Shown: one piece after another, positions 5,360 through 49,957 of the stretch
Layout: each line of letters starts with the position of its first letter
How positions within the stretch are numbered: the first letter of the stretch is position 1
DNA from: Herminiimonas arsenitoxidans
GTDB taxonomy: Bacteria; Pseudomonadota; Gammaproteobacteria; Burkholderiales; Burkholderiaceae_D
Direction: 5' to 3'
NCBI RefSeq assembly: GCF_900130075.1
Contig: NZ_LT671418.1
Location: forward strand, 2,356,001 to 2,420,000
DNA: 64,000 nt
Position numbers and translations under genes: made by a program
Notes under the pieces: model-generated
Database searches by the model: none
What the model was told of the DNA's origin: nothing
What the model saw: the letters and a program-made list of their open reading frames with translations, nothing else

Positions 5360-6617
5360 TCAATCGCTAAAGAACCGTATTGCCGGTGCTTTTATCCTGC
5401 TGGCCTTTGTGCTGTGCAGTTTCTTTTCGCTGGCCGCATACACCGCGGTCGAATTGATGGAATCCAAGCTGATCGATAAAAATCTCGATAAGCTGGCGAC
5501 CAATCTGATTGGCCAATACGTCAATCATCGCACGCTGGAACTACCACCCGACATCAGTTTTTACGTTGGCGTGGAAATCCCGGAAACTCTGCGCAAGCTG
5601 CCGCCTGGCATTCATGAGATTGAAATCGAAGGCTCAGAAATGCATGTCGTCGTGCGCATGGCCAACGATCAACACTTTGTCATTGCCGACGACACCAGTG
5701 ATTTCGAGCGCACTGAATTACTGATTTTCTTTGCCATCGCCGCCGGCTTTATTGCCAGCCTCCTGCTGGCGGTCGGCCTCGGCCGTACATTTGCCAAACA
5801 CGTTATTGCTCCGCTGACTGCATTGGCCACGTCGGTAGAACATAACGACATGCCATCCACACTGCCTTCGCTCAATACACAAAATGAAGTCGGCATGCTG
5901 GCACGTGCCTTCACCAAACGTACCGATCAGTTGCAACAATTTCTCGCCGATGAAAAATTGTTTACCGGCGATGTCAGCCATGAGTTGCGCACACCACTGA
6001 CCATCATCCTCGGCGCATCCGAATTATTAAAAGTGCAGTTGGCACAATCGCCAGATCAATTGGCAGTGGCCGAACGCATACGTCGCGTCGCGGCCGAAGC
6101 ATCCGAGCGCGTCAGTGCCTTGCTCATGCTGTCGCAATCACCGGATACCCTGGGCGGCTCGCAACTCTCGCTCACACATTTGATCGAACGCGAAATTGAG
6201 CGCTGCCGCCAACTCTTGCTCGGCAAGCCGGTACAAATTGAGTTCCATGCATCCAGCGATGTCTGGGTCTATGCACGTGCAGAGCTGGCCGGGATCGCGA
6301 TCGGCAATCTGCTCCGCAACGCCTGCCAGTACACGGAAGAAGGCACCGTCAAGGTACAGCTAACAACGCAACAATTAACAATTGAAGATAACGGGCCTGG
6401 CATTCCGGACAATGTGCGCACCCGCCTGTTCGAGCGCTTCGTACGTGGCAGCGAGAACCATCATGTTGGCTCCGGCCTCGGCCTGGCAATTGTTAAACGG
6501 GTAGCAGATCATCTCGGTTGGAAGATTCAATATGAAAGCCCGGCCGGCGGTGGCAGTCGTTTTATTCTGGCCTTCCCAGCCAATGCTCATATCGAACATC
6601 GGCACGTTCCTCTCTGA
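5346..6617 (+). CDS. Sensor histidine kinase (PmrB/QseC-like)
   Basis: This 423-residue protein has TM1 near residues 13-36, a periplasmic segment of about 85 residues, TM2 near 124-147, HAMP, then HisKA with phosphoacceptor His212 (VSHELRTPL). The HATPase motifs are NLLRNACQY, DNGPGIP and GSGLGLA. All catalytic motifs are intact. It overlaps the response regulator and is followed, 105 bases on, by a phosphoethanolamine transferase. That neighbourhood is typical of kinases sensing cationic peptides, metal or low pH, but the signal here is not known. The periplasmic domain has no clear ExxE iron motif, so PmrB identity is only by context. Confidence 0.9.
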   Translation: MMKPSQSLKNRIAGAFILLAFVLCSFFSLAAYTAVELMESKLIDKNLDKLATNLIGQYVNHRTLELPPDISFYVGVEIPETLRKLPPGIHEIEIEGSEMHVVVRMANDQHFVIADDTSDFERTELLIFFAIAAGFIASLLLAVGLGRTFAKHVIAPLTALATSVEHNDMPSTLPSLNTQNEVGMLARAFTKRTDQLQQFLADEKLFTGDVSHELRTPLTIILGASELLKVQLAQSPDQLAVAERIRRVAAEASERVSALLMLSQSPDTLGGSQLSLTHLIEREIERCRQLLLGKPVQIEFHASSDVWVYARAELAGIAIGNLLRNACQYTEEGTVKVQLTTQQLTIEDNGPGIPDNVRTRLFERFVRGSENHHVGSGLGLAIVKRVADHLGWKIQYESPAGGGSRFILAFPANAHIEHRHVPL

Positions 6618-6682
6618 GATAACAACGGTCAAGCAAGCCGCATGATCGTCATTGACCTCGCAATGAGAGACATTTCAATAAC

Positions 6683-6699
6683 ATTAACGCGCCCTTAAC
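6683..6699 (+). promoter_or_regulatory. PmrA-like direct repeat upstream of the phosphoethanolamine transferase
   Basis: ATTAAC-GCGCC-CTTAAC gives two TTAAC half-sites 11 bp apart, the spacing used by PmrA/OmpR-type regulators (PmrA box: YTTAAK-N5-YTTAAK, from family knowledge). It lies 24 bases before the TTG start. It is a strong candidate target of the adjacent two-component system. Confidence 0.5.
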
Positions 6700-6722
6700 G
6701 GCATAGGCGATAGCGTATTGGT

Positions 6723-8444
6723 TTGTCTATTCTGAGGTCGGTGTCCGTCTTGAAAACATCGCAAGCAACCGGAAGCACCGGCGCAGTACTTGAAGCACGC
6801 GGCAGCAGCCGCTTTCTCCATATCGTAAATCGTCTTCCCGCCATCAGTACCGAACGGCTCACCATACTGGCCAGCCTGTTCTTTTCGCTGACATCCAATT
6901 ATTTGTTCTTTTCAGCAGCAGTGGCTGGACGCAATTGGGCGCAATTCGACTCCTGGCTTTTTGCCGGTGCAATCTTCGTTGCGATCACGGCATTGCAATC
7001 TGCAGCGTTGCTCTTCCTGCTGAATCGCTGGACTGCCAAACCGGTACTTACCGTGCTGTTCCTCGTCACGGCCGCGGCAACGTATTACATGAACAAGTAC
7101 ACCGTGTTCTTCGATTCGGACATGGTGAGAAATATCCTGCGTACCGACGTCAAGGAAGCCAGTGAACTGTTCTCGCTGAGCTTCTGTATACATATGCTCG
7201 TATTCGCCGTGCTGCCGATACTACTGCTATGGAAGCTGCGTTTGAAAACGACATCCTGGTATCGTGCTATCCCGGTTCGTCTGCTGTATATCATTGGTGC
7301 ACTCGCCGTTACGGCTGGCTCCACCATGCTGGTTTATCAGGATTTTTCCTCGCTGATGCGCAATCAGAAGGAAGTCCGCTACCTGATCACGCCCAGCAAT
7401 TATCTATACTCGCTAGTGCGCGTCGTAGTCGCCGATACCGCACACGCCAACACGCCACGCGTCAAAATCAGCGAAGACGCGAAGATGGCAGCAACTTGGG
7501 GCCAACGTACCAAACCCATGCTCTTTATATTAGTAGTGGGTGAAACGACACGCGCCGCGAACTGGGGCTTGAACGGTTACGAACACCAAACCACACCGGA
7601 GTTAAGCAAGCTGGATGTAATGAACTTCCCGCATGCGACTTCATGCGGTACCAATACCGAAGTGTCGGTTCCGTGCATGTTCTCTATCTACGGACGACGT
7701 AACTACGACGAAGCAAAGATACGCGGTCACGAATCGCTGCTGCACATCATCGATCATGTCGGCGTCAAAACAATATGGCGAGATAACCAGGCCGGTTGCA
7801 AAGGTGTATGCGACGGTCTTGAAGAACAGCAGTTAGGTAATAGTAAAAATCCTGCCTTGTGTGACGGCGAGCGCTGTCTCGATGAGATCATGTTGGAAAA
7901 CATGGATGGCGAAATACATAAAGCGAAGAACGGCAATCTATTCATCGTCATGCATCAACTGGGCAATCACGGTCCGGCTTATTACCGTCGTTATCCAGCG
8001 TCTATGCGCACCTTTACGCCGACTTGCGATACATCCGATCTGAGCAAATGTTCACGCGAACAGATCGTCAATGCGTATGACAATGGCGTGCTGTACACCG
8101 ATCACTTCCTGGCGAAAACCATCGCTTATCTGAAGACACAAACGACTTACGATACCGCGATGCTGTATCTGTCTGACCATGGTGAATCGTTGGGCGAACA
8201 CGGCATTTATCTGCACGGCTTGCCGTACTCGATCGCGCCTAAAGAGCAAACACAAATCCCTATGGTGATGTGGCTGTCACAAGGTTTTGCCAACAGCTTC
8301 CATCTGAATAAAGACTGCCTGGCAAAACGTGCCGCCAACCCAGTCAGTCAGGATAATCTGTTCCACTCCATCCTCGGTATGCTGCAGATCGAATCCAAGT
8401 ATTACGATAAGTCGCTGGATATCAGCGCAGAATGCCGCTCATAA
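6723..8444 (+). CDS. eptA: Lipid A phosphoethanolamine transferase, EptA/MCR family
   Basis: This 573-residue inner-membrane enzyme moves phosphoethanolamine from phosphatidylethanolamine to lipid A on the periplasmic face, lowering negative charge and polymyxin binding (family knowledge). Five hydrophobic helices cover about residues 45-225. The periplasmic sulfatase-fold domain has metal-site Glu274 (VVGETTRAANW), nucleophile Thr312 (SCGTNTEVSVPC), HQLGNHGPAY and SDHGESLGEHG, all as in EptA and MCR. Cysteines equivalent to the structural disulfides are present. The TTG start is uncertain; a GTG at 6741 gives a protein six residues shorter. It lies directly downstream of a PmrAB-like system. 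The stop is 4 bases from the end of a convergent acyltransferase. Confidence 0.93.
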   Translation: MSILRSVSVLKTSQATGSTGAVLEARGSSRFLHIVNRLPAISTERLTILASLFFSLTSNYLFFSAAVAGRNWAQFDSWLFAGAIFVAITALQSAALLFLLNRWTAKPVLTVLFLVTAAATYYMNKYTVFFDSDMVRNILRTDVKEASELFSLSFCIHMLVFAVLPILLLWKLRLKTTSWYRAIPVRLLYIIGALAVTAGSTMLVYQDFSSLMRNQKEVRYLITPSNYLYSLVRVVVADTAHANTPRVKISEDAKMAATWGQRTKPMLFILVVGETTRAANWGLNGYEHQTTPELSKLDVMNFPHATSCGTNTEVSVPCMFSIYGRRNYDEAKIRGHESLLHIIDHVGVKTIWRDNQAGCKGVCDGLEEQQLGNSKNPALCDGERCLDEIMLENMDGEIHKAKNGNLFIVMHQLGNHGPAYYRRYPASMRTFTPTCDTSDLSKCSREQIVNAYDNGVLYTDHFLAKTIAYLKTQTTYDTAMLYLSDHGESLGEHGIYLHGLPYSIAPKEQTQIPMVMWLSQGFANSFHLNKDCLAKRAANPVSQDNLFHSILGMLQIESKYYDKSLDISAECRS

Positions 8445-24685: not shown

Positions 24686-24755
24686 GTTTTGTTCAATCAA
24701 TCGCGTTAAAAAACGAATGCGTGCGAAGGAATGGACAAAGAAATTGCGTGGACTT

Positions 24756-24845
24756 TGCGCTTCCCTACGCTGGCATTATCCAGGTCAGGTACGGAGGGTT
24801 TTTTCTCACCCGAAGACGTTTAGCTCTTCAGGACCCCTAGCGTGG
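24756..24845 (-). promoter_or_regulatory. TPP (THI-box) riboswitch
   Basis: Read on the minus strand this carries the THI consensus in order: CTAGGGGTCC, GGGTGAGA, ACCTGACCTGGATAATGCC and AGCGTAGGGAA. A P1 stem closes with CGCT/AGCG. It ends about 70 bases before the receptor ATG. Such aptamers bind thiamin pyrophosphate and switch the downstream gene off when thiamin is plentiful. Confidence 0.95.
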
Positions 24846-25024
24846 CCGCATACTAACACGAAAGAATAAGCGTGCGAAATGGCATCTTTGTTGTATTTTG
24901 CAGCGAATTTCGCCGATCTTAACCAGGATCAATTGGCAAGATGGCTAGTCTGCGGAGACGTGGAAGTAGGCGGCGTGACTATCAAAGATGTGCAGAACGC
25001 ATGCTTGGTACAACGAATTGATTT

Positions 25025-42761: not shown

Positions 42762-44777
42762 ATGAACAGCCTTAAGCGTTATATAGCCAAGCGTGGTGTC
42801 GGTGTAAAACTTTCCGCCATATCCTTTTTACTCATTGCTGTGGTCTTCGGTGCATTTGTATGGATCAGCGAGCACGCGACAGCCGATGTGCTGGAGCAAC
42901 GCGCAGCTGAAGAGGTCAATGCGAAGAGCCAGTTGATACTCGGCATGACCAACGATACTGCACTCATCAAGAGCAAGCTGCTATCGCTTAAAGTCGGCCA
43001 GACCGGAAGCTACTATGTACTCGATGCGAATCAAGGCAAAGACTACGGCAAATTGGTTATCGCAGCGAACAAGGAAGGACAAAACATTCTGGCAAGCAAA
43101 GCCAGCGATGGCCGCGAATTCATCAAAGACATCCTGAGCAAGAAAGAAGGCCTCATCCGCTATCGCCCCGACGCACAATCAGCTGAACGCATAGCCGCAT
43201 TCACCTATGCAAAAGATAAAAATTGGGTAGTCGTCGGCGATACCTATGCCTATGAGTTCTCGCAGGACGCCGGCATGTTGCGCAATATTTTCGCTGTTGC
43301 GGCACTGGCTGCTGCACTGATTTTGGCGGCGCTGTTATACGTAACCATACGCAAGATGCTGATCACTCCTCTTGCACAAGCAACACAAGCGGCACGCAAG
43401 CTCTCTACTGGCGACCTCACTGTCAGGCTGCAAACCAATCGTTCGGATGAAGTCGGCCATCTGCTGAATGCAATCAACGGCATTGGTCAAGGACTGGCCA
43501 ACGTCGTATGGAATATTCGTAACGGTACTAAAACCTTATCGACAGCAACCAATGAAATCGCCGCCGGCAATCTGGATCTCTCATCGCGTACCGAGCAACA
43601 AGCCAGCTCACTGGAAGAAACTGCATCAGCGATGGAAGAGATGACCTCGACCGTGAAAGAAAACGCAGCCAATGCAGAACAAGCTAATCAGTTGGCGCGC
43701 ACCGCATCTGAAGTAGCAGTCAAAGGCGGCAACGTCGTAGCAGAAGTCGTCAACACGATGGACTCGATCAATCAATCATCGAAGAAGATTGTAGACATCA
43801 TCAGCGTCATCGACAGCATCGCCTTTCAGACCAACATCCTGGCATTGAATGCAGCTGTCGAAGCCGCACGCGCAGGCGAACAAGGACGCGGCTTTGCCGT
43901 CGTTGCAGGAGAAGTCCGCAGTCTGGCGCAACGCAGTTCAGCTGCTGCACGTGAAATCAAATCCCTGATCGAAGACTCAGTCAGCAAAGTACAAAGCGGC
44001 AGCAAGCTGGTCGCGCATGCCGGTGCCACCATGAATGAAGTTGTCACCAGCATTCAGCGCGTCGACAACATCATGAGTGAAATCAGTTCTGCCAGCCGCG
44101 AGCAAAGCATAGGCATAGAACAAGTCAACCAAGCCATCGCACAAATGGATCAAGTAACGCAGCAGAATGCCGCGCTGGTTGAACAAGCTGCTGCTGCTGC
44201 AGAAGCGCTACAAAACCAAACGACAGAATTGAATAATGTCGTCGACGTCTTCAAGATCAAGAATGGCAGCCACGGCACGATGGAAGAAGCAAGCGAGATG
44301 GTCATGCGCGCGATTGCATCCCTGCATGCAAACGGCAAGACAGAAACCTTCGCCGAGATCAATAACAAGCTCGGTCCATTCTGCGACCGCGATCTATACG
44401 TCGTGGTCTACGATATGCACGGCAAGAATCTGGCGCACGGTGCCAACCCGGCCTTGATAGGCAAGGATTTGATCAATGCCAAAGATGGTGCCGGCAATCT
44501 GTTCATTCAGGAACGCCTCTCCATCATCAAGAACCACGGCAAGGGCTGGCAGGATTACATGTTCCTCAATCCCATCTCGAAACAGATGGAAGCCAAATCC
44601 ATGTATCTCGACAAGTATCAGGATTTGATTATCGGTTGCGGTGTCTATAAAGAAGTAGGTGCGACGCAGCAGGTCAAGCCAGGGCGCAAACAAATTTCGA
44701 CAGAGAAAAATACTCTGCGGCTCGGAACAGATAAGGCAAACACTCACCACAAGCGTATCGAAAAAGAAGCTGCATAA
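42762..44777 (+). CDS. Methyl-accepting chemotaxis protein with extra C-terminal Cache-like domain
   Basis: This 671-residue receptor has TM1 near residues 14-36, a periplasmic Cache-type domain (YYVLDANQG, FIKDILSKKEGLIRY, FTYAKDKNWVVVGDTY), TM2 near 172-198, HAMP, and a signalling hairpin with the MA core (QTNILALNAAVEAARAGEQG). After the hairpin a second Cache-like domain (about 507-632: LYVVVYDMHGKNLAHG, YLDKYQDLIIGCGVYKE) lies in the cytoplasm. Few receptors carry a sensor there; Cys in the last block hints at redox or heme binding. The basic tail (KKRIEKEAA-like) ends it. A terminator follows. Confidence 0.9.
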   Translation: MNSLKRYIAKRGVGVKLSAISFLLIAVVFGAFVWISEHATADVLEQRAAEEVNAKSQLILGMTNDTALIKSKLLSLKVGQTGSYYVLDANQGKDYGKLVIAANKEGQNILASKASDGREFIKDILSKKEGLIRYRPDAQSAERIAAFTYAKDKNWVVVGDTYAYEFSQDAGMLRNIFAVAALAAALILAALLYVTIRKMLITPLAQATQAARKLSTGDLTVRLQTNRSDEVGHLLNAINGIGQGLANVVWNIRNGTKTLSTATNEIAAGNLDLSSRTEQQASSLEETASAMEEMTSTVKENAANAEQANQLARTASEVAVKGGNVVAEVVNTMDSINQSSKKIVDIISVIDSIAFQTNILALNAAVEAARAGEQGRGFAVVAGEVRSLAQRSSAAAREIKSLIEDSVSKVQSGSKLVAHAGATMNEVVTSIQRVDNIMSEISSASREQSIGIEQVNQAIAQMDQVTQQNAALVEQAAAAAEALQNQTTELNNVVDVFKIKNGSHGTMEEASEMVMRAIASLHANGKTETFAEINNKLGPFCDRDLYVVVYDMHGKNLAHGANPALIGKDLINAKDGAGNLFIQERLSIIKNHGKGWQDYMFLNPISKQMEAKSMYLDKYQDLIIGCGVYKEVGATQQVKPGRKQISTEKNTLRLGTDKANTHHKRIEKEAA

Positions 44778-44798
44778 AAAATATCACTGACGCAATAC

Positions 44799-44846
44799 AT
44801 GGCGCCGTTTTCCATCCAACAGGAAAATCGGCGCCATTATTTTTCC
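44799..44846 (+). terminator. Terminator after the chemoreceptor gene
   Basis: ATGGCGCCG-TTTTCC (44799-44813) pairs with GGAAAATCGGCGCCAT (44822-44837) with one bulge, followed by TATTTTTCC. It is a strong intrinsic terminator. Confidence 0.85.
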
Positions 44847-44898
44847 CCCGATACGCCATATCGCAGTCATCTACTCTCGGCACAATATGAATAAGAGC

Positions 44899-44917
44899 TT
44901 GCTTAAAAAATAAGCAA
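44899..44917. promoter_or_regulatory. Inverted repeat upstream of the sigma-54 promoter
   Basis: TTGCTTA-AAAAA-TAAGCAA has 7-bp arms. Its centre lies about 67 bases upstream of the predicted transcription start, a usual place for a sigma-54 activator site. The activator is unknown; it may also be part of an independent structure. Confidence 0.45.
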
Positions 44918-44949
44918 TCCATTCATTCACCAAGATTGTGCATCCTCCG

Positions 44950-44965
44950 TGGCACAACAATTGCT
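44950..44965 (+). promoter_or_regulatory. Sigma-54 (RpoN) promoter
   Basis: TGGCACAACAATTGCT matches TGGCACG-N4-TTGCW except for one base. GG (44951) and GC (44963) are spaced 12, as in -24/-12 promoters. The predicted start is near 44975, a few bases before the first stem of the glycine riboswitch. Confidence 0.75.
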
Positions 44966-44974
44966 GTATCGGTA

Positions 44975-45155
44975 TTACTCCGCAGGAGAGAGGGGTTTTC
45001 CCCCGCCGAAGGTGCATCCCCATAATCACTCAGGCAACAACAACTGCGGCGTAATTTGGCCGATCTGGAGAGAGGTTGCGAATAGTTGGTACGCAACCCA
45101 CCGAAGGGGAAAGCGAGCAATGCTCGCGAAACTCTCAGGTAAATAGGACAGCGGG
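44975..45155 (+). promoter_or_regulatory. Tandem glycine riboswitch
   Basis: Two aptamers in a row. The first has GGAGAG (44985-44990), GCCGAAGG and TCACTCAGGCAAC, closed by CCGCAG (44980-44985) with CTGCGG (45043-45049). The second has CTGGAGAGAG, ACCGAAGGGG, AAACTCTCAGGTAAATAGGACAG (45129-45151). These are the glycine riboswitch consensus blocks. It leads the importer operon. Confidence 0.95.
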
Positions 45156-45294
45156 GCGGCTAATTATTTGACGCAAGTAATCCCTGCATGTCACGTCTCG
45201 GCCCTATCCGTAGCAAACCATTTATTCTGCGCGGCATCGTCACGATGATTCCGCCGAGACCGCTTGCGTCCTTGTTCACTTTCAGGATGATCAA

Positions 45295-46191
45295 ATGAAA
45301 ATTGTTAATAGCCTCGCTTTAATCCTTTCCGCCGGTCTGTTCGCAGGTGTCGTGCATGCCCAGGAGCTCACAGGTACGCTCAAAAAAATCAAGGACACCG
45401 GCATGATCACGCTGGGTGCGCGCGAATCTACCGCCCCATTCAGCTACAACCTGGAAGGTTCGCAATTCGTCGGCTATTCAGTCGACATCATGATGAAGAT
45501 AGTCGATCATCTGAAAACCGAATTGAAGATGCCGAATCTGCAATTCCGCATCATGCCTTTCACCGCGCAGAATCGTATTGCATTGATGCAGAACGGCACG
45601 CTCGATCTGGAATGTTCCACCACCACCAATACCGAAGATCGTCAGAAGCAGGTTGCCTTCTCCAACAGCATCTTCATCATCGGCACACGTCTGCTGACCG
45701 CCAAAGATTCCGGCATCAAGGATTTCGCTGATCTGAAAGGCAAGAATGTTTCCACCACTGCAGGCACCACCTCGGAACGTTTGCTCAACAAGGTCAATGA
45801 CGAAAAAAATCTGGGCATGAACATCATCGCTGCCAAGGAAAACGGGCAGGCATTTTTATCTGTCGATAGCGGGCGAGCGGTGGCCTTCATGATGGACGAT
45901 GCCATTCTTTACGGCGAACGCGCCAAATCCAAGAATCCAGAAAAATGGCATGTCGTCGGCACACCGCAATCGCGCGAAGCTTATGGCTGCATGATGCGCA
46001 AAGACGATGCCCCATTCAAGAAATTAGTTGATGGCGTAGTTGCCGATTTGATGAAGTCCGGCCAGATCATGCCTATCTATAAAAAATGGTTTGAGAATCC
46101 TATTCCTCCACGCCAGTTGCAACTCAGCTATCCGGTGTCGGATGACGTGAAAAATCTGTACGCCCATCCGAACGACAAAGCCATTCAATAA
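45295..46191 (+). CDS. ABC substrate-binding protein, glutamate/aspartate type
   Basis: This 298-residue periplasmic binding protein has a signal peptide ending about residue 22 (VVHAQELTG). GMITLGARESTAPFSYNLEG, VGYSVDIMMKIVDHLK, NGTLDLECSTTTNTEDRQKQVAFSNS and GKNVSTTAGTTSERLLN match GltI/AatJ-like proteins. The block LECSTTTNT is typical of acidic amino-acid binding. The first gene of an operon behind a sigma-54 promoter and a glycine riboswitch. The cargo is an acidic amino acid or a close relative such as hydroxyaspartate (inference). Confidence 0.92.
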   Translation: MKIVNSLALILSAGLFAGVVHAQELTGTLKKIKDTGMITLGARESTAPFSYNLEGSQFVGYSVDIMMKIVDHLKTELKMPNLQFRIMPFTAQNRIALMQNGTLDLECSTTTNTEDRQKQVAFSNSIFIIGTRLLTAKDSGIKDFADLKGKNVSTTAGTTSERLLNKVNDEKNLGMNIIAAKENGQAFLSVDSGRAVAFMMDDAILYGERAKSKNPEKWHVVGTPQSREAYGCMMRKDDAPFKKLVDGVVADLMKSGQIMPIYKKWFENPIPPRQLQLSYPVSDDVKNLYAHPNDKAIQ

Positions 46192-46284
46192 GCAAGTCAA
46201 ACGCATGCATAGGGAGGGCGGCATGTCGTATGCGTCGCCCGGCTTTGCAACGCCTGTATCAAAAGTAACAGCTAAGGAAACATC

Positions 46285-47016
46285 ATGACTTATGACTGGT
46301 ATTGGGGAATTTTTCTCGAATCGGCCAATGGACGCGAAACTTATTTTGACTGGCTGCTGTCCGGCTTCTGGACCACCATCAAGATGGGCGTGTTGGGTTG
46401 GATACTCGCCTTCGTACTGGGTTCCATTCTCGGCGTTATGCGCACCGCCAACCATCGCTTTCTATCCTTCATCGCGACGGCTTATGTGGAAGTGGTACGC
46501 AACGTGCCGCTGATTGTGCAATTGTTCCTGTGGTATTACCTCGTACCAAAATTTCTGCCTGAGACTTGGCGTGCATGGTTGTTCTCTCAACCACCGGCCA
46601 CGACGGCATTCGTGACAGCAACATTAGGCCTGGGATTTTTCACCGCAGCACGCGTATGCGAACAAGTGTATTCCGGCATTCAATCGGTACCGCGTGGTTT
46701 GCGTAATGCGGCGCTGGCAATGGGATTTACCACGCCGCAAACCTATCGCTACGTGCTGCTGCCTATCGCTTACCGTGTGATCCTGCCGCCCATGACGTCG
46801 GAGATGCTGAGTATTTTCAAAAACTCATCCATCGCAGCAACGATAGGCGTGATCGATCTGTTTGCCCGCACACGGCAATTAAATGATTACACCGCACGCG
46901 CTTATGAATCCTTCATTGCCGTCATCGTGTGCTACTTCATCATCAACCTGACCGTCATGCTGGCGATGCATTTGCTGGAGAAGCGCATGCGCATTCCCGG
47001 CACTGCAGGAAATTAA
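46285..47016 (+). CDS. ABC permease, glutamate/aspartate type (GltJ-like)
   Basis: This 243-residue inner-membrane protein has the family start TYDWYWGIFLE, VEVVRNVPLIVQLFLWYYLVP, the EAA loop GLRNAALAMGFTTPQTYRYVLLPIAYRVILPP and IFKNSSIAATIGV. About five helices are visible. TAAGGA lies before the ATG. It pairs with the next permease, 9 bases on. Confidence 0.92.
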   Translation: MTYDWYWGIFLESANGRETYFDWLLSGFWTTIKMGVLGWILAFVLGSILGVMRTANHRFLSFIATAYVEVVRNVPLIVQLFLWYYLVPKFLPETWRAWLFSQPPATTAFVTATLGLGFFTAARVCEQVYSGIQSVPRGLRNAALAMGFTTPQTYRYVLLPIAYRVILPPMTSEMLSIFKNSSIAATIGVIDLFARTRQLNDYTARAYESFIAVIVCYFIINLTVMLAMHLLEKRMRIPGTAGN

Positions 47017-47025
47017 GGAGACATC

Positions 47026-47706
47026 ATGCTTGGTCTGGATTTTAGTATCCTCACGCCGGAAGCCATCAGCGTGTTGGTCGAAGGCATGCTGGTGTCCCTA
47101 AAGGTAGCTGGCACTGCACTGGTCGTCGGCTTGATATGGGGCACGCTATTGGCAATGATGCGGCTGTCGCGCTTCCGCGTGCTATCGCTATTCTCTGCGG
47201 CTTACGTCAACTTCTTTCGCTCCATGCCTTTGGCGATGGTCTTGCTGGGTTTCTATCTGGTGGTGCCGCAGTTGCTCAAAAGTTTGTTCTGGGTACCGCA
47301 GACGATGGATACACGCATGTTGTCTGCACTGATTGGCTTCGCCTTGTTCGAGTCCGCTTATTACGCAGAGATCATGCGTGCCGGCATACAAAGCGTATCA
47401 AAAGGGCAGCTCGCCGTTTCCTACGCATTGGGTATGCGTCCTATGCAAGCGATGCGTCTGGTCATCTTGCCGCAGGCATTCCGCAATATGTTGCCGCTGC
47501 TCTTGATGCAATTGATCATTCTGTTTCAAGACACTTCGCTGGTCTACATCATCTCGCTCGCAGATTTCTTCACTAGTGCCGAAGGTATAGGTGAACGCGA
47601 TGGTCGCGTCGAAGAAATGATGCTGGTAGCCGGCGCAACTTATTTCATTATTTGCTTCACCGCGTCCATGCTGGTCAAGCGCTTATCAGGAGCAAAAAAA
47701 TCATGA
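47026..47706 (+). CDS. ABC permease, glutamate/aspartate type (GltK-like)
   Basis: This 226-residue inner-membrane protein has [20 protein letters not shown] and the EAA loop [33 protein letters not shown], plus [20 protein letters not shown]. It starts with a strong AAGGAG. The stop overlaps the ATPase start by 4 bases. It forms the second half of the channel. Confidence 0.92.
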
Positions 47707-48437
47707 TCGATATTTATCGCGTATCGAAGTGGTATGGCAATTTTCAAGTATTAACCGATTGCTCGACGCAGATTGCCAAAGGCGATGTAGTCGTCGTCTG
47801 CGGTCCATCCGGTTCGGGAAAATCAACTCTGATCAAAACCGTCAACGGCCTGGAACCCATCACCACCGGCAAGATCATGGTCGATGGCATCTCGGTCAAT
47901 GCACACGGCACCGACTTGCCCAAGCTGCGCTCGCGCGTCGGCATGGTGTTCCAGAACTTTGAATTGTTTCCACATCTATCCATTCGTGAAAATCTGACGC
48001 TCGCGCAAATACATGTCTTGCGACGCAGCAAGGAAGAGGCGATGGAAAAAGGCATGTTGTATCTGGAACGCGTTGGTTTGAAAACGCAGGCTGATAAATA
48101 TCCAGGACAACTATCCGGCGGACAACAACAACGCGTGGCAATTGCACGCGCCTTGTCAATGGACCCGATCTGCATGCTGTTCGATGAACCGACTTCAGCA
48201 CTCGATCCGGAAATGGTGAATGAAGTGCTGGATGTCATGGTGGAACTCGCACAAGAAGGCATGACCATGATGTGTGTCACACATGAAATGGGATTTGCCC
48301 GTAAAGTAGCGGATCGCATCATCTTCATGGATAAGGGCAGCATCGTCGAAGATTGCAGCAAGGAAGATTTTTTCGGCAATCTGGAAGCCCGCTCGGAACG
48401 CGCCCAACAATTCCTCTCCAATATTCTTGCGCATTAA
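47703..48437 (+). CDS. ABC transporter ATP-binding protein (GltL-like)
   Basis: This 244-residue ATPase has Walker [18 protein letters not shown], signature [16 protein letters not shown], Walker [17 protein letters not shown] and switch His in [13 protein letters not shown]. It is coupled to the preceding permease by a 4-base overlap and has CAGGAG upstream. It powers the importer behind the glycine riboswitch. Confidence 0.94.
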
Positions 48438-48471
48438 TTCTCTGTATTCATTCTGCACCTTAAGGGAACAC

Positions 48472-49623
48472 ATGAGTCACAACGATTTATCTTCCACCTT
48501 CACATCAAATATTCAAGCTGCACCGGCTGCAACAGGTGATCTTCTCGATAGCGTGGATACGCCAGCGTTGTTAGTCGATCTCGATGCATTTGAAGACAAT
48601 CTGGCGCGCGTACATACACGCATCCTGCAAGCAGGGTTGCAGGTGCGTCCACATGGCAAGGCACACAAAAGTCCCGCCATTGCGCATAAACAAATCGAAG
48701 CTGGTGCCCATGGCATCTGTTGTCAGAAGGTAAGCGAAGCAGAAGTCTTCGTCGATGCAGGCATACAAGATGTACTGATCACGAATCAAATTGTCGGCAT
48801 GCGCAAGGTTGATCGTCTGGCTGCACTGGCCGGTCGAGCACACATTGGTGTTTGTGTCGATCATCCGATTCAGGTCGAGCAACTCGGCGACGCCGTAGTA
48901 AAAGAAGGCACACATATTGACGTATTAGTTGAAGTCGATATCGGTCATGGCCGTTGCGGCGTAGCCAATGCGTTTGAAGCAATCGATCTCGCACGCACCA
49001 TCCAGCAATATCATCCGCATCTACGCTTCGTCGGCATACATGCCTTCCGTGGTTCGGCGCAACACATGCGTCAACCGCAAGAGCGTGCCGCCGCCGTTAC
49101 TAGCGCAGTGGAAAAAGTACGCGGCATCGTGCAGGAACTGGAAGCAGCAGGCTTCGCGTGCACTACGATTACCGGCGGTGGCACCGGTACCTATATGCAT
49201 GAAGCGAGTTCTACCTTGTACACCGAAGTGCAACCAGGCTCGTATGTATTAATGGATACCGATTACGCAGCGAACAAGCTGGAAGAAGGCAGCACGCCTT
49301 TGCAACATGCTCTGTTCGGTTTATGCACAGTGATCAGTGTGCAAGCTGGCCATGCAGTGCTGGATGGCGGCTTGAAGGCATTTGCTGTCGATCAAGGATT
49401 GCCACGTATTCAATTAGCAGGATGGTCGGTCAAAACATTGTCGGATGAACATACAGTGATCATCCCCGACGATACTGCCACACCATTGCACGTCGGTGAC
49501 AAAGTCAGATTGATTCCCAGTCATTGCGATCCTACAGTCAATCTGCATGATTGGCTCATCGCATTTCGCGGAAAAACAGTAGAACATGCGTGGCCAGTAT
49601 CGGCGCGTGGCGCTTTGTTTTAA
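48472..49623 (+). CDS. D-threonine / D-3-hydroxyaspartate aldolase family PLP enzyme
   Basis: This 383-residue enzyme has the alanine-racemase-type PLP barrel. Lys63 in RPHGKAHKS should bind PLP; GICCQKVSEAEVF, ITGGGTGTY, LDGGLKAFAVDQGLP and the C-terminal SHCDPTVNLHDW (metal ligands) and WPVSARGALF follow. From memory, the whole pattern is closest to D-3-hydroxyaspartate aldolase (glycine plus glyoxylate), close to D-threonine aldolase (glycine plus acetaldehyde). Either gives glycine. The operon is led by a glycine riboswitch. The ATG at 48472 has AAGGGA upstream. Substrate specificity is inference. Confidence 0.85.
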   Translation: MSHNDLSSTFTSNIQAAPAATGDLLDSVDTPALLVDLDAFEDNLARVHTRILQAGLQVRPHGKAHKSPAIAHKQIEAGAHGICCQKVSEAEVFVDAGIQDVLITNQIVGMRKVDRLAALAGRAHIGVCVDHPIQVEQLGDAVVKEGTHIDVLVEVDIGHGRCGVANAFEAIDLARTIQQYHPHLRFVGIHAFRGSAQHMRQPQERAAAVTSAVEKVRGIVQELEAAGFACTTITGGGTGTYMHEASSTLYTEVQPGSYVLMDTDYAANKLEEGSTPLQHALFGLCTVISVQAGHAVLDGGLKAFAVDQGLPRIQLAGWSVKTLSDEHTVIIPDDTATPLHVGDKVRLIPSHCDPTVNLHDWLIAFRGKTVEHAWPVSARGALF

Positions 49624-49732: not shown

Positions 49733-49957
49733 ATGGCTGTGAAAAAGCTGAGCAAGCAAGAGTTTCTGGACGAACTCAATCGCAATCTGAAAGATCATCC
49801 CGGCTACGAAGACTGGATGCAGTTCGTGCCACCGCCGGAAGGTGTAGAGCCGGATACGGTGGAAGGATTCGAACGCGCCGGGCCTGAACCGCGTCACTCG
49901 CTCTATGATCTGGTTGCCTTGAAAGTAGGCGAAGCCTTCGAGATATTTCCGAAGTAA
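49733..49957 (+). CDS. Small hypothetical protein (74 aa)
   Basis: This acidic soluble protein starts MAVKKLSKQEFLDELNRNLKDHPGYEDW and ends with LVALKVGEAFEIFPK; the middle is Pro/Glu/Gly-rich. A near-perfect AAGGAGG before the ATG supports translation. I do not recognise the family. Short helices at each end flank a loop. Single gene between hairpins; function unknown. Confidence 0.7.
   Translation: MAVKKLSKQEFLDELNRNLKDHPGYEDWMQFVPPPEGVEPDTVEGFERAGPEPRHSLYDLVALKVGEAFEIFPK

Follow-up and report, generated by a model that had tools for sequence, protein, structure and literature searches.

A single operon of the 3.78 Mb, single-contig genome of Herminiimonas arsenitoxidans combines a sigma-54 promoter site, a tandem glycine riboswitch, the importer genes gltI-gltJ-gltK-gltL and a gene for an aldolase dependent on pyridoxal 5'-phosphate (PLP). 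It lies between mcp, which encodes a chemotaxis receptor, and a small open reading frame at 49734, in a 64,000-nt stretch of contig NZ_LT671418.1 (positions 2,356,001 to 2,420,000; the whole stretch is called the window and its own numbering is used below). An earlier sequence-only reading of this DNA had reported the same succession of promoter, riboswitch, importer and aldolase, and the elements were found as described, down to the end at 49623, which is the aldolase stop.

The model that we favour, tentatively and at rather less than an even chance, is an import-and-cleavage operon controlled by sigma-54 and by the riboswitch, with glycine feedback. The sigma-54 promoter would drive the operon under the tandem riboswitch, GltIJKL would import an aspartate-like amino acid, the aldolase would cleave a D-beta-hydroxy amino acid (the best guess being D-threo-3-hydroxyaspartate, giving glycine and glyoxylate), and the glycine produced would feed back on the leader RNA. 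The promoter motif, the two aptamers, the gene order, the catalytic residues, the aspartate-leaning pocket and the failure to find GcvT and GcvP are seen directly in the sequence; we infer RpoN dependence, the aldolase substrate, glycine as its product and the regulation. As it stands, the uptake-and-cleavage loop is plausible.

Promoter and riboswitch

The promoter site, TGGCACAACAATTGCT (44950-44965, forward strand, as are all elements of the operon), agrees with the -24/-12 consensus at 11 of 12 positions and has the GG-N10-GC spacing. The genome has 21 occurrences of TGGCACN5TTGCW but a single one of the pattern read backwards, so few of the genomic sites should be due to chance. An rpoN gene is present (PF04552, E 3.4e-66), and the operon is predicted to depend on its product. 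Transcription would start at about 44975-44977, 12 nt beyond the -12 element. In the computed fold, P1 of aptamer I pairs AUUAC (44974-44978) with GUAAU (45051-45055), so that the implied start falls inside the first P1 strand and the riboswitch would have no free 5' leader. The view that promoter and riboswitch are built together is upheld. For comparison, promoter and target were examined in the 30 best-scoring glycine riboswitch loci from other genomes; within 260 nt ahead of these riboswitches the top sigma-54 score was 10 (L012, at -135) and all others were 9 or less.

Aptamer I (44973-45056) and aptamer II (45055-45159) share 2 nt, score 53.4 and 54.2 bits with RF00504 (cut-off 32) and are the sole glycine aptamers found in the genome. 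With model R1, itself built partly from this sequence, aptamer I reaches 67.1 bits. The conserved core is kept at 34/36 and 32/36 columns (those at least 90 % conserved in 22 other sequences), some of the deviations resembling gap placement near J3/1. Judged by these scores, the tandem element is a glycine riboswitch with two intact aptamers. In this respect, and in having one downstream gene set, it is like the tandem riboswitch of gcvT operons, from which it differs by the preceding sigma-54 site, by a target made of an acidic amino-acid importer and an aldolase, and by a host genome without detectable GcvT or GcvP.

Glycine riboswitches are present in 172 of 300 genomes of the order. That the target is an unusual one, as had been proposed, agrees with the comparison set, in which 27 of the 30 loci instead carry gcvT downstream on the riboswitch strand, with a gene resembling lipA standing in between in two of them (L004 and L020). 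The riboswitches of L003 and L011 precede a gene for a DadA-like flavin adenine dinucleotide enzyme and that of L006 a glyA-like gene (names read from sequence). Some glycine riboswitches serve glycine transporters of the Na+/alanine symporter type; the present target is likewise concerned with transport, but it is a GltI-type ATP-binding cassette (ABC) importer with an aspartate-like pocket, accompanied by an enzyme. According to the available portions of five papers (PMC3766115, PMC2211319, PMC12452182, PMC9481103, PMC6944388), reported targets are glycine cleavage, glycine transport, serine metabolism, malate synthase and unidentified genes, and no acidic amino-acid importer figures in those portions.

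The system normally controlled by such a riboswitch seems to be missing. The genome gave no match to a relative's GcvT, in a search without its own control, and GcvP (PF02347) had no match in any of the 13 genomes of the genus, in a search that exceeded its cut-off in 28 of 60 genomes overall and was positive in 10 of 14 control genomes. On the GcvP and GcvT searches (GcvH was not searched), the genus appears to be without a glycine cleavage system. Since neither protein was found, the riboswitch would be present without its usual partner. A search with stricter filters detected no glycine riboswitch in 12 congeners.

Folding of the leader suggests several possible routes from aptamer to ribosome binding site. 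A candidate anti-P1 hairpin (45147-45192), built from GACA/UGUC and GCGGGG/CCCUGC with an inner AUUAUUUG/CAAGUAAU pairing, could compete with P1 of aptamer II; GCGGGG/CCCUGC has a pair probability of 0.78 in the unconstrained fold, and shuffled sequences lend the hairpin no support. The Shine-Dalgarno (SD) sequence AGGA (45284-45287) may be hidden in a candidate hairpin CGUCCU/AGGAUG (45267-45272/45284-45289), and an alternative long stem GACGCAAG/CUUGCGUC (45170-45177/45263-45270) overlaps it. This stem reaches pair probabilities of 0.66-0.70 when P1 is enforced and the RNA ends at 45330, against 0.02-0.10 at three other 3' ends. When the anti-P1 hairpin is enforced in the comparison, the P1 state lowers the cost of opening the SD for each of the four 3' ends (5.13 vs 5.86, 4.81 vs 6.00, 3.89 vs 6.18 and 4.99 vs 6.20 kcal), a lean to ON; the unpaired fraction of the SD, however, is larger with P1 for just two of the four. 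Against the unconstrained ensemble, P1 makes SD opening slightly costlier (3.89 vs 3.58 kcal) and the lean is gone. With P1 simply disallowed, the two states differ by 0.59 kcal for the 3' end at 45310 and by 0.02 kcal for that at 45330; out of 150 shuffles, 27 and 106, respectively, reach these values. Overall, the folded leader is more stable than shuffled sequences by no more than a small margin (z -1.84 and -1.19).

Two attempts to read the mechanism were given up. A terminator-type switch was rejected, as 44780-45320 holds no site resembling an intrinsic terminator (shuffles average 0.5), and so was an ON or OFF sign read from folding, because the ON lean needs the enforced anti-P1 hairpin and does not exceed shuffles. 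The sole structural lean in the computed folds is ON, opposite to the sign that we favour, and it fails the shuffle control. Repression of the operon by glycine has, in our estimate, slightly better than an even chance, since making still more glycine at high glycine levels would be the wrong response in a cell that lacks glycine cleavage. A physiological ground for preferring repression is the toxicity of glycine, argued in PMC6944388.

The importer and the aldolase

Downstream of the leader, gltI (45295-46191) encodes an acidic amino-acid binding protein that scores 394.9 bits with NF008063 (cut-off 375). It is followed by a gltJ-like permease gene (46285-47016; PF00528), a gltK-like permease gene (47026-47706; PF00528, with 277.2 bits for NF011687, under the cut-off of 318) and a gltL-like ATPase gene (47703-48437; PF00005). 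The acidic type assigned to this importer is supported by the GltI score, and its pocket leans to aspartate. The closest solved chain is 2ia4/2vha, the alignment with which keeps R24, R75, R97 and D182 and differs at T27, A72 and N164; residues other than 27 and 72 are presumed here to belong to the pocket. Thus, GltI shares with the glutamate/aspartate importer GltIJKL both the family and these four residues. PMC10942590 reports that GltI comes to prefer aspartate over glutamate with S72A or S72P, and that combining S27A with S72P makes it more selective. Compared with GltI and with jAspSnFR3, an aspartate sensor derived from it, the present pocket has A72, T27 and N164, of which A72 turns GltI towards aspartate. 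Because the pocket resembles the engineered aspartate-preferring variants, an aspartate-sized ligand looks likelier than glutamate.

The same pocket is common among relatives. Among the 120 nearest listed GltI relatives (P0001-P0120), residue 72 is A in 71, P in 36 and S in 13, residue 27 is A in 29 and T in 7, and A72 and N164 (2vha numbering) always occur together (71 of 120) and never apart. A27, the residue in those 29 relatives, is the state in the engineered aspartate sensor. An importer at 70 % identity (L141, genome G057) has A72 and N164 as well, and no glycine aptamer was found near it. A pocket so widespread is no proof that 3-hydroxyaspartate is the ligand.

The last gene of the operon (48472-49623) begins 34 nt beyond the gltL stop on the same strand and encodes a fold-III PLP enzyme of the D-threonine aldolase family (PF01168 and PF14031; related structures 7dib, 4v15, 7yqa and 6qkb). 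In an alignment read by eye, it keeps the six catalytic residues of the D-threonine aldolase AxDTA (PDB 4v15): K59, which we take to be the PLP lysine, R157, H193, D321, H347 and D349. The roles of the latter five in AxDTA are described in PMC4401734. The conserved set includes the H-x-D metal pair and the base H193, which has no counterpart in the related serine dehydratase. In a tree of 40 chosen rows with a midpoint root and some weak deep forks, the aldolase falls into a clade of nine (support 100/99) joined to the AxDTA clade (95/92). A second aldolase of the same genome falls inside the AxDTA clade, and BhcC is placed elsewhere. An assignment of the enzyme as BhcC (PDB 6qkb) is therefore rejected: it shares the fold family and the H-x-D metal motif, but its 382.5 bits with NF045642 are well under the equivalog cut-off of 690 and it stands in another clade. 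The sequence-only reading had placed it in the D-threonine / D-3-hydroxyaspartate group; the D-threonine half of this assignment agrees with the catalytic set, the other half is weakened by the position outside BhcC. As the enzyme sits beside AxDTA and outside the characterised BhcC, 3-hydroxyaspartate is a guess as to its substrate.

Apart from forming its own clade, the aldolase differs from AxDTA by the motif HAFRG, which in most relatives is QAY(H/N/Q)G; its Arg precedes the catalytic histidine by five residues. In 100 relatives' loci this position is Arg in 7, His in 42, Asn in 28, Gln in 17, Ala or Ser in 5 and unread in 1; the seven Arg loci comprise six from Herminiimonas, with some species counted twice, and one from Sheuella (HAYRG). 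An additional Arg close to the active site would match an acidic side chain, which is only suggestive because BhcC carries Gln there. Elsewhere in the genome, a second aldolase gene of this family (L082, G000:C1:1949000-1964000; 5723-6925, minus strand) has a TctA-type transporter and a class V aminotransferase in its neighbourhood and may belong to a further cluster for hydroxy amino acids or glyoxylate.

Distribution among relatives

At E 1e-60 the aldolase is found in 71 of 300 genomes of the order; there are 57 named loci, and the best named relatives are Herminiimonas species. None of the 77 loci from the aldolase search (L063-L139, some of them short contigs) contains a gltI match at E 1e-15. 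Among the riboswitch matches listed for the 300 genomes and inspected by eye, only the present genome has the aldolase or importer within 10 kb. GltI relatives at 83-89 % (P0002-P0006) occur in sequence collections, and P0001, at 98 %, probably represents the cluster of the window itself. Neither aldolase nor aptamer was found near the importers at 68-69 % (L171 and L172, 16 kb each); that at 71 % (L170) has no aptamer, and as its contig stops directly after gltK, an aldolase may follow there.

A pattern for the combination of sigma-54 site and riboswitch, which tolerated no mismatch and which looser promoters would escape, matched in 7 of 398 genomes. Five of the seven loci have no aptamer at E 1 and the match in G345 falls between its two aptamers, which leaves the present genome alone. 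A search of the open-licence literature found no paper that brings together 'glycine riboswitch' and 'sigma-54', and the portions at hand of two open-licence papers (PMC12316311, PMC12421884) contain no riboswitch paired with a sigma-54-dependent promoter.

In H. contaminans (L083), in KBW02 (L084) and in the congeners G001, G004 and G011, an aldolase at 79-80 % follows directly after mcp without any importer; L083 and G004 seem to represent one species. Upstream of the aldolase, a stretch of 34 nt resembles window positions 48275-48308, inside gltL, at 30 of 34 positions in L083 (9928-9961, E 1e-7) and at 31 of 34 in L084 (9900-9933, E 9e-9), and the same 11-12 codons are weakly recognisable in G001 (E 0.30) and G011 (E 0.061). 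The matched stretch belongs to a motif that ATPases for polar amino acids have in common. Since this gltL-like remnant sits between mcp and the aldolase, an importer probably once stood there and was then deleted, the remnant being a likely deletion scar.

In the window itself, mcp (42762-44777) adjoins the operon on the upstream side and is followed by a probable terminator, an inverted repeat with 13-nt arms that are 92 % complementary (44799-44811/44825-44837, forward strand; repeat search). The Cache domain of the receptor (sCache_2, residues 481-630) is placed after the signalling domain, an unusual order. A thiamine pyrophosphate riboswitch (24745-24848, minus strand, 63.1 bits) lies elsewhere in the window.

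Competing explanations and their consequences

A number of results weigh against the favoured model. No glycine aptamer was found in the 77 aldolase-search loci or in 11 further importer loci, and an aptamer search of 38 importer or aldolase loci yielded no more than a pair of 14-bit matches (E 0.49, E 0.79). Among loci with surroundings examined, the promoter-riboswitch pair and the gene set is one instance, and the congeners' aldolase orthologues exist without importer or riboswitch. The importer may carry plain aspartate, the aldolase is not BhcC, and the folding lean, such as it is, points to ON. Some of these points would fit a looser assembly, in which a sigma-54-controlled aspartate importer for nitrogen scavenging picked up a stray riboswitch of the gcv type while the aldolase, a passenger, acts on D-threonine or another substrate that is not imported. 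The aldolase retained beside mcp in congeners, the importers of L171 and L172 without aldolase or aptamer nearby, that of L170 without aptamer, and the proximity of the aldolase clade to AxDTA rather than to BhcC speak for it; we nevertheless hold it to be rather unlikely, given the 34-nt distance between gltL and the aldolase on one strand, the conserved cores of both aptamers, and the gltL-like remnant of the congeners, which implies that the pairing of importer and aldolase predates this one genome.

A distinctly unlikely explanation is that high glycine induces the aldolase as a sink, the enzyme running in the synthetic direction (glycine plus glyoxylate or another aldehyde giving a hydroxy amino acid) under an ON switch inherited from a gcv leader. 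The prevalence of gcvT in related loci and the failure to find GcvT and GcvP here are in keeping with this, as are a possible helix chain from P1 through GACGCAAG/CUUGCGUC to a broken SD hairpin, the lower cost of SD opening that P1 brings for each 3' end when the anti-P1 hairpin is enforced, and the use of threonine aldolases to condense glycine with aldehydes, mentioned in PMC4761611. However, the SD difference is matched by shuffles once P1 is merely forbidden, the lean vanishes against the unconstrained ensemble, and a sink would make an acidic amino-acid importer unnecessary. It is very improbable that the sigma-54 motif is a decoy and that a different promoter drives the operon. In favour of a decoy, the six frames of the 64 kb window contain no sigma-54 activator motif (GAFT, GESGTGKE-like or ESELFG). 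A dyad TTGCTTA-N5-TAAGCAA (44899-44917; repeat search) is a candidate activator site. Against a decoy stand the 21-to-1 enrichment over the reversed pattern and a spacing that fits the first riboswitch stem exactly; that 44780-45320 holds no sigma-70-like site says little, because shuffles average just 0.8.

Beyond the favoured model, it has been considered, and is judged unlikely, that the riboswitch was moved or kept for another glycine economy, namely a gate that would admit uptake and cleavage of 3-hydroxyaspartate according to both nitrogen starvation, through sigma-54, and glycine. If this were true, it would provide a natural substrate for aldolases of the D-threonine type and an example of a riboswitch outliving its original regulon. 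Because the gene order ties the aldolase to an importer of predictable ligand and to a glycine sensor, ligand, product and regulation are all testable, and the locus may point to the natural role of the D-threonine-type aldolase family. It would also show a glycine riboswitch working without the machinery usually under its control, and a sigma-54 promoter starting transcription within the first stem of an aptamer.

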